Of a stretch of 44,649 nucleotides of DNA, positions 1 through 44,649 are shown piece by piece. The DNA comes from Pilibacter termitis. Lineage in GTDB: Bacteria > Bacillota > Bacilli > Lactobacillales > Streptococcaceae. The notes beneath the pieces are model-generated. The model was not told where the DNA came from. It saw only the letters and a list, made by a program, of their open reading frames with translations, and did not search any database. The stretch spans positions 1 through 44,649 of the forward strand of contig NZ_FUXI01000008.1 in the NCBI RefSeq assembly GCF_900167335.1, in the 5' to 3' direction. A program made the position numbers and the translations under genes. Positions within the stretch are counted from its first letter, which is position 1, and the number at the start of each line of letters is the position of its first letter.

Positions 1-91
1 CAGTGAGCCGTGCCATTTACTTGCCTGAAGCAGAGCTTCAGGTGGCACTGCGAACAGCCACCAGACCTCAGCACTTCGTAGCTAGACAAAG
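1..91 (+). repeat. Dispersed hairpin unit, copy A (left-truncated by window edge)
   Basis: This is the right part of a roughly 120-bp dispersed unit found at least eight times in the window. It contains the apical stem CTGAAGC...GCTTCAG (about 27-44), the right arm with CAGACCTCAGCACTTC, and the fixed right end GTAGCTAGACAAAG (78-91). The left arm lies outside the window. The other window end also cuts a copy, so the window probably corresponds to a contig bounded by this repeat. Confidence 0.8.
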
Positions 92-9934: not shown

Positions 9935-10012
9935 TAATCTCCTTTAGTTTTCCTGTTTACATTTCATTTTTCGGTTTCCGGGGCCTTAAAATGGGGTAAA
10001 CAATACCGACTA
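9935..10012 (-). ncRNA. L13 leader (ribosomal protein autoregulatory RNA)
   Basis: The untranslated leader between the promoter and rplM can fold with GTTTAC pairing to GTAAAC at the base, CATTT with AAATG next, and a GC-rich GGCCCCGG apical part. Position, size and this outline fit the L13 leader motif known in Firmicutes, which is thought to bind L13 and repress its own operon. I matched it by eye, not with a covariance model. Confidence 0.65.
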
Positions 10013-13851: not shown

Positions 13852-14403
13852 TCACATACTCCCTTTAAACACATCAGCATTTTTCGCAAAATAATCCACT
13901 CCCGAGTAAACTGTCGCAATCAAGCAAATGTAGAGCAAAATCGCACCAATTATCTCAAAATGTAAAAAGAGGAAAATAATCGCAAGCATTTGAGTAGCTG
14001 TTTTTATTTTGCCGGGCCAAGCGGCTGCTAAAACTTCACCGTTTTCTTCGACAAGCAGCAAGCGTAAACCTGTTACTGCAAGCTCACGACAAATGATAAT
14101 CGCCACCACCCAAGCAGGAGAAAAATCAAGTGCAACAAGCACCACAAAAGCTGCCATTACAAGCATTTTATCCGCAAGAGGATCGGCAAATTTGCCAAAA
14201 TTTGTGACCATTTTCCATTTTCTCGCAAGAAAACCGTCTAACCAATCTGTCACGCTTGCAAGTGCAAAAACAACTGCACCCACAAGATGAACGAGTGGAA
14301 TATCGCCCACATTCCCCCAACTATTCGTTGGAAGTGAAACAATGAGCAAGAAAAGTGGAATCATAAAGATTCTTAATACTGTTAGTTTGTTGGGTAAATT
14401 CAT
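13852..14403 (-). CDS. pgsA: CDP-diacylglycerol--glycerol-3-phosphate 3-phosphatidyltransferase
   Basis: PgsA makes phosphatidylglycerol phosphate, the committed step to phosphatidylglycerol. The start at 14403 (AAAGGA at 6-base spacing, protein MNLPNKLTVLRIF) is the family's usual beginning; the frame remains open upstream only because it runs into a repeat array. The 183-residue membrane protein carries the CDP-alcohol phosphotransferase motif D..DG..AR........G...D...D as DWLDGFLARKW...GKFADPLADK. Gene order rodZ-pgsA is standard in Firmicutes, but here a 95-bp tandem array of 740 bases separates the two, so read-through or a separate promoter is needed. Confidence 0.96.
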   Translation of the reverse strand: MNLPNKLTVLRIFMIPLFLLIVSLPTNSWGNVGDIPLVHLVGAVVFALASVTDWLDGFLARKWKMVTNFGKFADPLADKMLVMAAFVVLVALDFSPAWVVAIIICRELAVTGLRLLLVEENGEVLAAAWPGKIKTATQMLAIIFLFLHFEIIGAILLYICLIATVYSGVDYFAKNADVFKGSM

Positions 14404-14419
14404 TTTCTGTCCTTTCTTC

Positions 14420-15160
14420 GAAATCACTTTGTGATTTCTTGAAACTTGACTTACGCTTCGCTCCAGCCAAGCGGGGTCATTCGCGAACTTAAGTCCGCTC
14501 AAAGTCTTTTCTGCGAAATCTCTTCGGGATTTCTTGAAACTTGACTTACGCTTCGCTCCAGCCAAGCGGGGTCATTCGCGAACTTAAGTCCGCTCAAAGT
14601 CTTTTCTGCGAAATCTCTTCGGGATTTCTTGAAACTTGACTTACGCTTCGCTCCAGCCAAGCGGGGTCATTCGCGAACTTAAGTCCGCTCAAAGTCTTTT
14701 CTGCGAAATCTCTTCGGGATTTCTTGAAACTTGACTTACGCTATCGCTCCAGCCAAGCGAGGTCACTCGCGAACTTAAGTCCGCTCGAAGTCTTTTCTGC
14801 GAAATCACTTCGGGATTTCTTGAAACTTGACTTCCACTATCGCTCCAGCCAAGCGGGGTCATTCGCGAACTAAAGTCCGCTCAAAGTCTTTTCTGCGAAA
14901 TCTCTTCGGGATTTCTTGAAACTTGACTTACGCTTCGCTCCAGCCAAGCGGGGTCATTTGCGAACTAAAGTCCGCTCAAAGTCCTTTCTGCGAAATCACT
15001 TCGTGATTTCTTGAAACTTGACTTACGCTTCGCTCCAGCCAAGCGGGGTCACTCGCGAACTTAAGTCCGCTCGAAGTCTTTTCTGCGAAATCACTTCAGG
15101 ATTTCTTGAAACTTGACTTACGCTATCGATACAGACAAGCGGGAGCATTCGTGAGTTTCT
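14420..15160. repeat. 95-bp tandem repeat array (about 7.8 copies)
   Basis: Units begin at 14420, 14515, 14610, 14705, 14801, 14897, 14992 and 15087, a spacing of 95 or 96 bases. The last is partial and diverged. Each begins GAAATC..CTTCG..GATTTC, which in several copies is a perfect 7-bp hairpin (GAAATCA-CTTCG-TGATTTC), followed by TTGAAACTTGACTTACGCTTCG, CCAAGCGGGGTCA and GCGAACTTAAGTCCGC, the last a near-palindrome around ACTTAAGT. Since 95 is not a multiple of three, it is not a repeat-protein gene. Copies are 90% or more alike, so the array is young or kept uniform by recombination, and copy number probably varies between strains. Confidence 0.92.
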
Positions 15161-15192
15161 ACCTCACTTCGTCTCCATATCTCGCCACACGC

Positions 15193-16137
15193 TTACTCTA
15201 AAATATTCTCTATGGTCACATTTACCGTCATTTGACCTAATTGTGTAATTTGCGTTAAATCAATTTTTTCGCCGTTCAATGTCATTTTTACATTGTCTTC
15301 ACTGTGTTCTACATAATACCTCGTAGCAGAGTTGTAGACTTCAAATTTAATCGAAAAGACTTTGCTTTTTTCAAGTTGTTCCTTATTCAGCACAAGCTCT
15401 CCTGTTGTTCCTTTGATTGCTGTGCTACCATTTGGATAGTTTGCCACACTTGTACTTGGTGGACTTGCCACATAGGCTAAGGCAACGCCTTGTTTCGTTT
15501 CAATCGAAAGTTTCAATGGAAGTTTGACGTTTTTCGCAGTCATATCCATCTCAAGAGGCGTTACATTGTCAACATTCAATGAAAAAGGCTCTGCTTGTGT
15601 TGAGGATGTTGTCGAACTGCTTGATGATGTACTTTCCGTTGTCTCGCTTGAAGTTTCGCTACTCGATGAAGAAGTCGAAATCAAATTATCCACTTTAAAA
15701 GAGGAATTTGTAAACGAGGAGGAATTATTGTTGCTAGACACCATGATATAAATCACGCCACCCAAGATTGAAATTGCCAAAAAGGACAAAATAATCAACG
15801 GTAAAAAATTCGATTTTCCCTCATGTTTCCCTCCACGTTTTGTGGTTACTTCTTGGAAAACAGGCTCTTCCTCAGCTATTTCTTCTACTTCTCTCTCTGG
15901 AGCTTTTCCTTCAAAAATATCTACCATTTCTTGAGCGTTAAGCCCTACGGCATTGGCGTATTGTCGGATAAATGCCTTGGCATAAAACAACCCCGGCAAC
16001 GCATCATAATCATCTATTTCCAACGCCTCTAAAAAGCGTACTTGTACTTTTGAAATTTGCTGAACTTCCATCAGCGACATACCACGCTCTAAGCGTGCTT
16101 GTTGTAATCTTTCTCCCACAGTAAGATTATTTCTCAC
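15193..16137 (-). CDS. rodZ: RodZ/YmfM-like HTH membrane protein
   Basis: The protein begins at a GTG and has 314 residues. An N-terminal Xre-type HTH occupies about 1-75 (LTVGERLQQARLERGMSLMEVQQISKVQVRFLEALE), a membrane helix lies near 112-134 (FLPLIILSFLAISILGGVIYIMV), a Ser/Thr-rich linker follows (about 135-185), and the C-terminal DUF4115-type beta domain ends the protein. This is the RodZ architecture: a cytoplasmic domain that contacts the MreB cytoskeleton and an outside domain, involved in cell elongation. Many Lactobacillales are ovoid and lack MreB, so the partner here is uncertain. Neighbours ymfI, ymfH and ymfF agree with the usual order. Confidence 0.9.
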   Translation of the reverse strand: MRNNLTVGERLQQARLERGMSLMEVQQISKVQVRFLEALEIDDYDALPGLFYAKAFIRQYANAVGLNAQEMVDIFEGKAPEREVEEIAEEEPVFQEVTTKRGGKHEGKSNFLPLIILSFLAISILGGVIYIMVSSNNNSSSFTNSSFKVDNLISTSSSSSETSSETTESTSSSSSTTSSTQAEPFSLNVDNVTPLEMDMTAKNVKLPLKLSIETKQGVALAYVASPPSTSVANYPNGSTAIKGTTGELVLNKEQLEKSKVFSIKFEVYNSATRYYVEHSEDNVKMTLNGEKIDLTQITQLGQMTVNVTIENILE

Positions 16138-28400: not shown

Positions 28401-31187
28401 TTATTCTTCAAAGCCAGACATTACTTCTTCTGCAAAGTTTTCTTTTAAAATCTCTGCACATTTATGGCAAACGTCTTTCAAATGCGGATTTTCGTCGTCT
28501 CCTACTGTTGTACTTGTTGCACGACAGCGAACACAAACTTCACCTGTTGCGTGTGTAACGCTTAGTTTTGTATCGCCAAATGTTTGAGTATCATTGTTTG
28601 CATCTGTTGACAATTCAAACTCTGAGACAATCAATAATTGAGCAATATCAGCATTGAGACTTTCAAGCAAGACTTTTTGAGCTTCTGTGGCAAAAACTGT
28701 CACTTTCGCCTCAAGAGATTTCCCGATAACTTTTTCGTTTCGTGCGTTTTCTAGCCCTTTTAGGACATCATCACGAAAATCAAGGAAAGCATTCCATTGT
28801 TCCAAAATTGCTTGTTCATCTGCAAACGAGCGAGCTGTTGGAAATTCAGAAAGCTGAACAAATTCTTCCTCTTCTTTCGTCTCTTTCCAGATTTCCTCTG
28901 CGGTGTGTGGCAAAATTGGTGCAAGTAATTTTGTCAAGGCAACCAACGTTTCGTACATGACTGTCTGCATTGCACGGCGAGAATGTGCGTTTTCCGCCTC
29001 GATGTAAACCACATCTTTTGCGAAATCCAAGTAGAATTGTGACAAGTCAACGGTGAGGAAGTTGACAATTGTTTTGTAAATGTGAATAAAGTTGTATTTG
29101 TCATACCCTTTTTCACGAACGGAGCGAATAACTTCGTTTAAGCGAATCATCATGTATTTGTCAACTGAACGCAATTCTTCAAAAGGAACGGCATTCGTGT
29201 TTGGTGTGAAGTCACTTGTGTTGGCAATCAAGAAACGCATTGTATTGCGGATTTTGCGGTAAACTTCAGCAACTTGTGTCAAAATATCCATAGATACACG
29301 CACATCTGCCTCGCTATCCACACTTGCCACCCAAAGACGTAAAATGTCTGCTCCAAATTGTTTGACCACTTTTTCTGGCAAAATGACGTTGCCTAGTGAT
29401 TTACTCATTTTGCGACCTTCACCGTCAAGGACAAATCCTTGTGAAAGAACTGCCTTGTATGGTGCCACACCGTTAATTGCGACACTTGTTGTGATACTTG
29501 AGTTGAACCAACCACGGTATTGGTCACTTCCCTCAAGGTACAAATCAGCTGGGAAACTTAATTCTTCACGCTGACGTAACACTGCCTCATGACTACTTCC
29601 AGAGTCAAACCAAACGTCCATGATGTCTTTTTCTTTGGTAAAAATTCCATTTGGGCTACCTGCGTGAGTAAAGCCTTCTGGCAATAAATCTTTCGCTTCA
29701 CGATTCCACCAAATAATCGAACCATGCTCGCTAAACAGTTGTGCAACGTGAGCAATTGTTTCTGGGGTGATAATTTCTTCCCCATTTTCAGCGTAAAAAA
29801 TCGGAAGTGGCACACCCCACGCACGTTGACGAGAAATCACCCAATCACCACGGTCACGTACCATGTTGTAGAGGCGAGTTTTCCCCCAAGGGATAATCCA
29901 GTCCACTTTTTCCACTTCGTCTAAAATATTTTGACGGAATTTGTCAATAGAGGCAAACCACTGCGGTGTCGCTCTAAAAATAACAGGTTTTTTCGTCCGC
30001 CAATCGTGTGGATAGCTATGCGTGAAGAAATCTAGCTTGAGCAACGCTCCAGACTTCTCTAGCATTTCTGTAATCATTGGATTTGCTTTGTCATAAAACA
30101 TTCCTGTAAACAATGGTGCTTCATCGGTGTAAACTCCACGTGAATCAACAGGAGAAAGAATAGCTAAGCCATATTTTTTCCCTACATGATAGTCGTCCTC
30201 ACCATGCCCCGGTGCTGTATGCACAAGTCCAGTACCTGCCTCGTCTGTCACGTGATCTCCCACCATTACAAGACTTGTACGGTCGTAAAACGGATGTTGA
30301 GCTGTCATGTATTCCATGTCAAGACCTTTGAGTGTTTGAACAATTTCAAATTCCGTCCAGCCAATCTCGTTTGCTACTTTTTCTAGCATAACTTGTGCAA
30401 TGACGAATTTGCGGTTGTCTACTTTAACTACGGCATAGTCAAAATCAGGATTTACTGAAATACCAAGATTTGCAGGCAATGTCCACGGTGTTGTCGTCCA
30501 GATGACCATTTCAACATCATCAGACAAAATGCCTTTTCCGTCTACCACTTTGAAAGCAACGTAGATACTTGGGCTTTTCACGTCCTTGTACTCGATCTCT
30601 GCCTCGGCAAGCGAACTTTCAGATGACGGCGACCAATAAATTGGTTTCAATCCTTTATAAATATAGCCATTTTCAGCCATTTTCCCAAACACACGAATTT
30701 GAGCCGCCTCATATTCTGGGTTGAGGGTGATGTATGGATTTTCCCAATCACCTGTCACACCTAGACGTTTAAAATCTGCACGTTGTGTGTCAACTTGTGA
30801 AAGAGCGTATTTTCTACATTCTTCCAGATACGCTGAAAGCTCCATTTCTTTGCGGTTAATTTTTTTGTTGGTCAACACTTGTTCAATTGGCAAACCGTGT
30901 GTATCCCACCCCGGCACGTAAGGAGTGCGGAAACCTGACATAGATTTGCTACGAACAATAATGTCTTTTGAGATTTTGTTCAACGAATGACCTAAATGAA
31001 TATTCCCATTTGCGTATGGAGGGCCGTCATGCAGGATAAATGTTGGTTTCCCTTCGTTTAATTGTTGACGTTTCGCGTAAACTTCTGACGTTTCCCATTC
31101 CTCTTGCCATGCAACTTCTCTATTTGGTAAATTTGCACGCATTGGAAAAGCTGTTTTTCCTAGATTGAGTGTTTCTTTCATTTTCAT
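28401..31187 (-). CDS. ileS: Isoleucyl-tRNA synthetase
   Basis: The 928-residue class I synthetase attaches isoleucine to tRNA-Ile and edits valine. HIGH motif is HLGHS (about residues 63-67, after PPYANGNI), the editing domain contains [18 protein letters not shown] is present as KMSKSLGN, and the C-terminal zinc site is CVRCR...CHKCAEIL. Length matches bacterial IleS type 1, which is generally mupirocin-sensitive. The ATG follows AAGGAG at 8-base spacing. The leader contains a T-box and three tandem hairpin units, so control is by uncharged tRNA-Ile and possibly by the repeats. Confidence 0.98.
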
Positions 31188-31203
31188 GATTTGTTCTCCT
31201 TTT

Positions 31204-31324
31204 TCTAGCTACGAGGGGCAGGAGTTGGGCGACTGCTCGCAATGTCGCTTGAAGCTAACGCTTCAAGTGAATGAACGACATAGTTCGCTGTCGCAAACTC
31301 CTGAACGCCCCTCTACGCTTTTAT
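31204..31324 (-). repeat. Dispersed hairpin unit, copy C (ileS leader)
   Basis: Read on the minus strand, arms GAGGGGC/GCCCCTC, AGGAGTT/AACTCCT, GTCGC/GCGAC, a TGTCG/CGACA segment and a CTTGAAGCG/CGCTTCAAG-type tip stack into one long hairpin. The fixed end TAGCTAGA touches AAAAGGAG, the ribosome binding site of ileS. Confidence 0.88.
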
Positions 31325-31327
31325 TTT

Positions 31328-31448
31328 TCTAGCTACATGGTGCTGAAGTCTGGCAACTGTTCGCAACAGCACTGGAAACTTACGTTTCCAGCAAGTAAAT
31401 GCTGTGGCTCACTGTTGCAGACTTCAGAACGCACCATTACGCTTTTAT
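31328..31448 (-). repeat. Dispersed hairpin unit, copy D (ileS leader)
   Basis: Same layout as copy C but with different arms that still pair: ATGGTGC/GCACCAT, CTGAAGTCTG/CAGACTTCAG, CAACAGCA-type/TGCTGT and tip CTGGAAAC/GTTTCCAG. Fixed ends AAAAGCG and TAGCTAGA are kept. Confidence 0.88.
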
Positions 31449-31451
31449 TTG

Positions 31452-31571
31452 TCTAGCTATGAGGGGCAGGAGTTGGGCGCCTGCTCTCAACGTCGCTCGA
31501 AACTGACGTTTCGAGTAAATAAACGACGTGGTTCGCTGTCGCAAACTCCTGAACGCCCCTCTACGCTTTTA
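31452..31571 (-). repeat. Dispersed hairpin unit, copy E (ileS leader)
   Basis: Arms match copy C at the base (GAGGGGC/GCCCCTC, AGGAGTT/AACTCCT) with a tip of its own (CTCGAAAC/GTTTCGAG). It is the unit nearest the T-box terminator. Confidence 0.88.
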
Positions 31572-31589
31572 TTTTTTTCTAATATAAAC

Positions 31590-31790
31590 AAAAACCCTAG
31601 TCATAGGACTAGGGACGAATTTTTTTCGTGGTGCCACCTTAGCTTTGCATAAAAACAATATGCCTCTAAGATGAATATCGACATCAACCGTTCATTATGA
31701 GTATAGCTGATTTTTCCTTATGGTAGGGAATGCGAAACTTGCACTGTCTTTCGCTCGCTTGAAATATATCATAAGGCTTTTTTGGTCTAT
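31590..31790 (-). ncRNA. T-box riboswitch (tRNA-Ile) of ileS
   Basis: On the minus strand the leader contains the T-box sequence AAGGTGGCACCACG (31627-31640), the following TTCGTCCC, and a terminator CCCTAGTC/GACTAGGG (31595-31614) with TTTTTGTTT. TTCGTCCCTAG can alternatively pair in the antiterminator. Upstream, a Stem I-like region holds an ATC triplet followed by A (31709-31711), a likely isoleucine specifier. Uncharged tRNA-Ile should favour read-through into ileS. The terminator is separated from ileS by about 390 bases filled with three hairpin units. Confidence 0.92.
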
Positions 31791-44434: not shown

Positions 44435-44556
44435 AAAAGCGGAGAGGGCGGTTAGGGGATTGTCGCAGTGAGCCTTGCCATTTACTTGCCTGAAGCAGAG
44501 CTTCAGGTGGCATTGCGAACAGCGACCAGACTTCAGCACTTCGTAGCTAGACACAG
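44435..44556 (+). repeat. Dispersed hairpin unit, copy G
   Basis: The unit runs from AAAAGCGG to GTAGCTAGACACAG and abuts the stop codon of the preceding gene. The tip stem CTGAAGC/GCTTCAG is intact, but the left arm (GAGGGCGGTTAGGGGATTG) does not pair with the right arm (CAGACTTCAGCACTTC) except at GTCGC/GCGAC. It looks recombinant. Confidence 0.8.
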
Positions 44557-44649
44557 AAAAGCGAAGTGGGGCGGTCTGAAGTTTGCAACAGTGAGCCATG
44601 CCATTCACTTGCTTGAAACGAAGTTTCAAGTGGCATTGCGAACAGTTGC
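44557..44649 (+). repeat. Dispersed hairpin unit, copy H (right-truncated by window edge)
   Basis: The unit starts AAAAGCGAAGTGGGGCGGTCTGAAG directly after copy G and is cut in the middle of its right half. Its left arm would pair with the right arm of copy G. The tip is CTTGAAAC/GTTTCAAG. Confidence 0.8.

Follow-up and report, generated by a model that had tools for sequence, protein, structure and literature searches.

A tandem repeat array before pgsA of Pilibacter termitis belongs to an interspersed repeat family seated in Shine-Dalgarno sequences

The window, by which we mean the whole 44,649-nucleotide stretch of Pilibacter termitis DNA analyzed here, carries a tandem array between a rodZ-like gene and pgsA (Table 1). 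TRF calls it at 14409-15151 with a period of 95, 7.8 copies, 94% matches and a score of 1277, and a covariance model resolves eight units, in keeping with the near-identical 95/96-bp tandem units of the original prediction, which had also rightly described the array as non-coding and free of unique spacers; the pgsA leader contains it. Both structures described earlier, a hairpin (GAAATC/GATTTC) and a stem (CGCTT/AAGCG), are present in the sequence, but the palindrome ACTTAAGT does not occur in every unit, as the units starting at 14790 and 14886 have ACTAAAGT. The pgsA start had been placed 17 bases from the first unit; in fact its ATG (14401-14403) is only 5 nt from the array edge, and the Shine-Dalgarno sequence (SD) of the gene lies inside the last unit, a feature that had been overlooked. 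The internal junctions of the array read AGAAAAGAC in six of seven cases and AGAAAGGAC in the remaining one. Most units differ by substitutions, but those at 14504-14598 and 14599-14693 are identical and the source assembly is a draft (59 contigs, 98.67% complete), so the exact number of units before pgsA is not certain. The two flanking genes are normally a tight pair, as had been assumed: the rodZ-like and pgsA matches are neighbors on the same strand in all three relatives examined (L056, L057, L058), and a genome of the same genus (G001) has a gap of 22 nt between the end of rodZ and the start of pgsA.

Table 1. Coordinates of the features of the window
Feature	Position	Strand	Basis
Further family C unit, window end	1-86		
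Ribosomal protein L13 leader (RF00555), ordinary	9950-10007		
MITE-like element, ~280 bp, inverted ends ~50 bp, containing a family C unit; matched 108 times in the genome	13500-13790		
pgsA, SD seated in the array	13852-14403	(-)	ORF; TIGR00560 above curated cut-off
SD of pgsA, AGAAAGGAC; GGA to ATG 6 nt	14409-14417	(-)	sequence
Family A tandem array, eight units of 95/96 bp, reading towards pgsA	14408-15176	(-)	TRF and covariance model
Units 1-4 by coordinate	14408-14509, 14503-14604, 14598-14699, 14693-14795	(-)	covariance model
Units 5-8 by coordinate	14789-14891, 14885-14986, 14980-15081, 15075-15176	(-)	covariance model
Terminal unit adjoining pgsA, SD in its 3' end	14408-14509	(-)	covariance model, 111.2 bits; sequence
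Eighth unit, degenerate, farthest upstream in the array	15075-15176	(-)	covariance model, 60.4 bits
rodZ-like gene, upstream of the array	15193-16137	(-)	ORF; NF041534, E 1.8e-36, below its cut-off
ileS	28401-31187	(-)	TIGR00392 above cut-off
Family C tandem array, three 124-bp units, unrelated to family A, ending at the ileS SD	31200-31574	(-)	TRF; sequence
Further family C units, window end	44443-44649		

The array is the longest seen of an interspersed family, here called family A, which is not specific to rodZ and pgsA. Units elsewhere in the genome, for which the original prediction had suggested a search, were found at 31 places by BLAST, and a covariance model derived from an alignment of 66 units gave 55 matches forming 35 arrays. 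A single further genus of Streptococcaceae accounts for another 148 model matches, spread over six genomes that include L. raffinolactis NBRC 100932, L. laudensis DSM 28961, L. chungangensis DSM 22330 and L. reticulitermitis Rs-Y01; in the same genus, genome G067 has one match and G017 none. With the stricter filters used for model searches spanning more than 40 genomes, the family was detected in 7 of 335 Streptococcaceae genomes, the source genome included, and a sample of 395 genomes from the order added none to these. An exact-pattern scan of a species genome collection returned 25 stretches, from the four Lactococcus species and one Streptococcaceae MAG, and phage, plasmid and viral-contig collections, from which records near the source genome may be excluded, gave no family A match. 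Single units account for 132 of the 157 arrays scored below. In one stretch (G068:C4:116811-120566), five copies stand about 0.85-1.05 kb apart, as if there were one for each gene in a row of neighbors.

To define the position of the arrays we used a rule that requires, after the 3' end of the array, a purine-rich SD and a start codon that begins an open frame in the orientation of the array. The 203 model matches, 202 of which were entered (G061 C12:98609 was left out), form 158 arrays, at least two arrays of the source genome being split by N gaps in this count, and 157 were scored (G064:C1:232732 was left out). The rule was passed by 146 of the 157, and by the same number when loosened, compared with 1/157 for a control that used the opposite array end and the opposite strand and 329 of 5707 random positions of the same loci (5.8%). 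Most of the 11 failures have individual features: two arrays end in N gaps (L015 C10:62644 and L016 C44:43029); one model match overran its SD (L242); one array has an SD and ATG with a short frame (L244), another is interrupted by family C, a second repeat family described below, with the SD behind it (L246), in a third the SD comes further on (L157), and two precede the SD and ATG of a 45-codon frame (L319) or a remnant followed by SD and ATG (L306). The other three have no clear start (L241, L291, L311). Two arrays outside the count also fail, giving 146/159 with them: in one the next start is 44 nt on (L305), and in the other a repeat remnant is followed by GAAAGAGG and ATG (L097).

The genes that follow the arrays, recognized by eye from their N-termini except for pgsA, the only one covered by the family-library test, include in the source genome pgsA, hemW-like and dapA-like genes and genes for a PP2C-like phosphatase, transport proteins and lipoproteins, and in the lactococci trmFO-, pstB-, rbfA-, nifJ-, galE-, ccpA- and ctsR-like genes. 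Comparison of the N-termini after 31 arrays here with those after 87 in the other genus revealed one weak match in common (33% over 70 aa). Because 29 of the 35 arrays in this genome pass the SD test before genes of such unrelated kinds, the role particular to rodZ and pgsA that had been envisaged for the array is unsupported, as is the notion of a device dedicated to this gene pair. Tuning of pgsA by unit number is possible, and variability of that number, also proposed earlier, is supported at orthologous Lactococcus sites, where one gene has 2, 6, 3 and 0 units in four species.

Comparison of related lactococci revealed sites with and without the repeat. We compared 98 upstream regions, among the matches listed, of 28 genes chosen because a fetched locus carries family A; orthology was taken from best protein matches, and paralogues and nearly all rows of G067 and G017 were dropped. 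Among the 21 genes readable in four species, family A is present in all four for 2, in one to three for 18 and in none for 1. At the nifJ-like gene, three species have the empty site ATCACAGAAAGAGGTAAACATG (L202-L204), and L. reticulitermitis (L206) has the same flank with one unit within, its junctions reading ATCACAGAAA/GACTTTGAG on the left and ATCACAGAAA/GAGGTAAACATG on the right. Empty and filled sites were likewise found at a pstB-like gene (empty in L160, filled in L158 and L161), at the gene of L030 (empty in L155, filled in L154 and L157), at a trmFO-like gene (empty in L207 and L208, filled with three units in L209 and one in L210) and at the gene of L098 (empty in L220 and L221, filled in L222). 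In L222, from L. reticulitermitis, the insertion is in an SD located, as judged by eye, within the upstream gene at its 3' end, so that the frame of this gene now seems to run into the unit. Left flanks are A-rich and end in AAG, with A 84, A 81 and G 82 at the last three positions of the 89 arrays with a readable left end. In the source genome the left end is AAAAG in 20 of 23 arrays, so nearly constant that the boundary between unit and target is ambiguous, as AAAAG may belong to the unit. The sequence common to both flanks differs by site, being only AAAG at trmFO and eleven bases at the nifJ-like gene. Taken together, the empty and filled sites and their flanks indicate that the unit enters the SD at AAA(G)|GG, disrupting its left part and supplying AGAAA(G) on the right.

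From these observations, the feature is most likely a mobile repeat and not a device serving the rodZ-pgsA pair. We consider it probable that the array is the local expansion of a non-autonomous mobile repeat that inserts in SDs and rebuilds the SD it interrupts. According to this model, a unit of about 95 bp would insert in one orientation inside the SD, between AAA(G) and GG(A); its 3' end, consisting of a hairpin and GCAGAAA(G), would then join the remaining GG(A) of the target, so that an SD is rebuilt beside the hairpin. The insertion would be tolerated because the gene still has its ribosome-binding site. A recombinase would move the unit, perhaps acting on a folded single strand, and local duplication would subsequently enlarge the arrays. 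Observed in favor of the model are the number of copies, their position and orientation, the empty and filled sites and, as described below, the covarying sense-strand structure and the greater likeness of units within arrays; that the rebuilt SD works, that its tolerance accounts for the distribution, whether or not there is true targeting, and that a recombinase is involved is inferred. The model is weakened by the fact that the source genome has no Y1, RVT_1 or IS110 match, by a flank duplication that is inconsistent between sites, by the ambiguous boundary of unit and target noted above, by the pairing of the GGA in the full-leader fold described below, by the indirect nature of presence and absence between species as evidence of insertion, and by the 11 of 157 arrays, plus the two outside the count, that fail the SD rule.

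The strongest competitor holds that an ordinary small repeat enters any AAAGG and that only the copies in SDs survive, in which case the seat would reflect purifying selection, not targeting. Such sites are indeed common: outside the array, the window has AAAGGA in 5 SDs, at 8 further places between genes and at 43 in coding sequence, and family C is also found at CAA|GG within a MITE-like element, away from an SD. The same counts show that the hexamer alone cannot explain the seat, as it is far commoner than its SD-seated form, and almost no array is found at the intergenic AAAGGA outside SDs, even though these outnumber the SDs. We regard survival alone as a real possibility, if rather less than an even one.

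The unit has a covarying structure. A 28-pair structure, evaluated on 66 distinct units, has 90.7% of its cells paired and double-sided changes in 17 pairs, amounting to 126 cells against 29.4 in shuffles, and slid versions of it all scored far lower. Helix P1, near the left end, covaries in 7 of 9 pairs and P3, at the right end, in all 7, its two arms changing together, which puts palindromes close to both ends; the base of P1 has a tandem G.A step in 46 of 66 units and Watson-Crick-compatible letters in 14. In helix 4, UUC pairs with the GAA of the right end in 99.5% of cells. The excess of G-T over A-C cells (41 versus 18 in variable pairs, 227 versus 19 overall) indicates that the sense strand is the folded one, as RNA or single-stranded DNA. 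The middle domain has two conserved and mutually exclusive pairings, P2a with some covariation support and P2b with none, the latter nevertheless appearing in the minimum-energy fold. The 3' hairpin is paired in 95.1% of cells in terminal units and 91.0% in internal ones. When the last unit is folded together with the beginning of pgsA, the SD GGA and the ATG are predicted to be unpaired (z -2.36), whereas the full 813-nt leader, of a length at which folds are uncertain, has the ATG open but the GGA paired upstream in its minimum-energy structure, which counts against a plainly open SD.

Some of these features would also be expected of a single-strand, PATE-like member of the IS200/IS605 group moved by a Y1 HUH transposase, with the UUC/GAA pairing of helix 4 corresponding to a guide TTC that pairs with the right-end GAA; hairpins near both ends, a short target that recurs at the right end, and the fixed orientation all fit. 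No match to such an enzyme, however, was found in the source genome, a draft that is 98.67% complete: Y1 transposases (PF01797) were found in two of nine genomes searched, one each in G061 and G064, with no family A sequence in their surroundings. We regard this origin as unlikely, although it deserves some weight. Considered as terminal inverted repeats (a MITE criterion), the ends CTTTgAGCG and CTTTcTGCG agree at 7/9 positions, a weak similarity judged by eye. IS110 had no match in the source genome, G069 alone passing the cut-off. Retro-copying was considered because many first units are 5'-truncated and was rejected, as the source genome has no reverse transcriptase match (PF00078; found in one of nine genomes searched, G061).

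A structured unit kept beside the SD for translational control, its copies having spread as a regulon, would be a cis-regulatory RNA, a reading favored by the strong covariation, the sense-strand fold, the mutually exclusive pairings and the better-paired 3' hairpin of terminal units. Against this, the downstream genes have no common theme and their sets differ between the genera, presence varies among sister species, up to eight units stand in tandem and the array has no Rfam match above the cut-off: at the curated score, the window and ten loci yielded only the L13 leader and a tRNA, both outside the array, and a search of the array at E up to 10 gave two chance matches. We find a regulatory origin improbable.

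How the repeat came to be tandem is indicated by the unit identities, which average 94.4% within the window array (21 pairs, seven units) and 80.7% between arrays (314 pairs). If arrays arose mainly by re-insertion at the regenerated SD, terminal units would be expected to be the more alike, but their identity between arrays is barely higher than that of internal units (0.820 versus 0.807), and this origin was rejected as the main source. The high likeness within arrays and the small advantage of terminal units make local duplication the preferred route by which arrays would mainly grow. That the unit number is an artefact of assembly, given the draft status, the N gaps within other family A arrays (L004, L014, L015, L016) and the two identical units, is very improbable, as substitutions distinguish most units and multi-unit arrays occur in independently assembled genomes; absence of the repeat elsewhere, which the original prediction had linked to such an artefact, is not what we observed for the family.

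The array of a second tandem family, family C, ends in the window at an SD as well, GTAGCTAGAAAAAGGAGAACAAATCATG, where ileS starts. Just upstream of this array, near 31600-31650, lies a sequence that we take by eye to be T-box-like, for which Rfam at its cut-off makes no T-box call. Among loci obtained for other reasons, and thus a sample rather than a census, family C copies end at or near SDs in L012, L016, L018, L019 and L246, stand directly before family A arrays in L010, L013 and L244, and lie inside the MITE-like element at CAA|GG in L019 and L051-L054; the end is not readable or out of view in L005, L014, L015, L052 and at both window ends. A set of 40 lactococcal loci (245,583 bp) contained no copy. 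In L014, L018 and L052, some units are split at the same point by an insert with its own hairpin (AAGAATCAAAGATTCTT). It is conceivable, though on balance somewhat doubtful, that at least two unrelated families, of 95 and 124 bp, use the SD as a home site and rebuild it, with a common AA(A)|GG junction and adjoining positions at the same genes (L010, L013, L244), and that one mover serves both, maybe via folded single strands.

Family A is unusual in being seated in the SD and in rebuilding this signal. A comparison for such elements is provided by tRNA-targeting integrases, which rebuild the tRNA end on insertion. If the mobile-repeat model is true, a family that settles almost only at SDs and recreates the site with its own end would represent a safe-haven strategy for translation signals; dozens of genes would acquire one common structured leader in which the unit number is free to vary, and the seat makes the effect of such insertions on translation testable. 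In the open-licence literature searched, we found no report of an SD-seated mobile repeat. Small mobile repeats as such are widely known, and those compared here are not reported as living in ribosome-binding sites.

Family A resembles PATEs and other IS200/IS605-type elements in being too short for a transposase, in having a short targeting sequence and, with P1 and P3, in carrying palindromes near both ends; PATEs have no obvious terminal inverted repeats, and the ends of family A show the weak similarity at 7/9 positions given above. It differs in that PATE palindromes resemble those of IS605-type transposons, none of which, nor a transposase, was found for family A, and in its SD seat, which does not feature in the portions of the PATE descriptions used here (PMC3119063). 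Guide sequences are described for IS200/IS605-type elements in a source that also covers REP/BIME elements with TnpA-REP (PMC8266576); these are multicopy, palindromic, sometimes tandem and thought to be moved as single strands, as family A may be, but REPs are 20-50 nt long and preceded by GTAG, whereas family A consists of 95-nt units at SDs in a genome without TnpA-REP (Y1). BOX elements of pneumococcus and S. suis (PMC3049150) are likewise small, interspersed repeats of Streptococcaceae with a variable-number tandem module, folded once transcribed and probably mobilized in trans. They are composites of the form boxA-boxB(n)-boxC and are found more often than expected between convergent genes (Table 1 of that report), whereas in family A only one kind of unit was seen, ending in 146 of 157 arrays in the SD of a co-oriented gene. 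The TAACTGA direct repeats of Beggiatoaceae (PMC4679880) precede, like family A, a large number of unrelated start codons, for the most part in a single orientation, and are presumed to act in translation; their heptamers overlap the expected SD position and only 15 regions (~10%) also have an SD, whereas the end of family A itself forms the SD.
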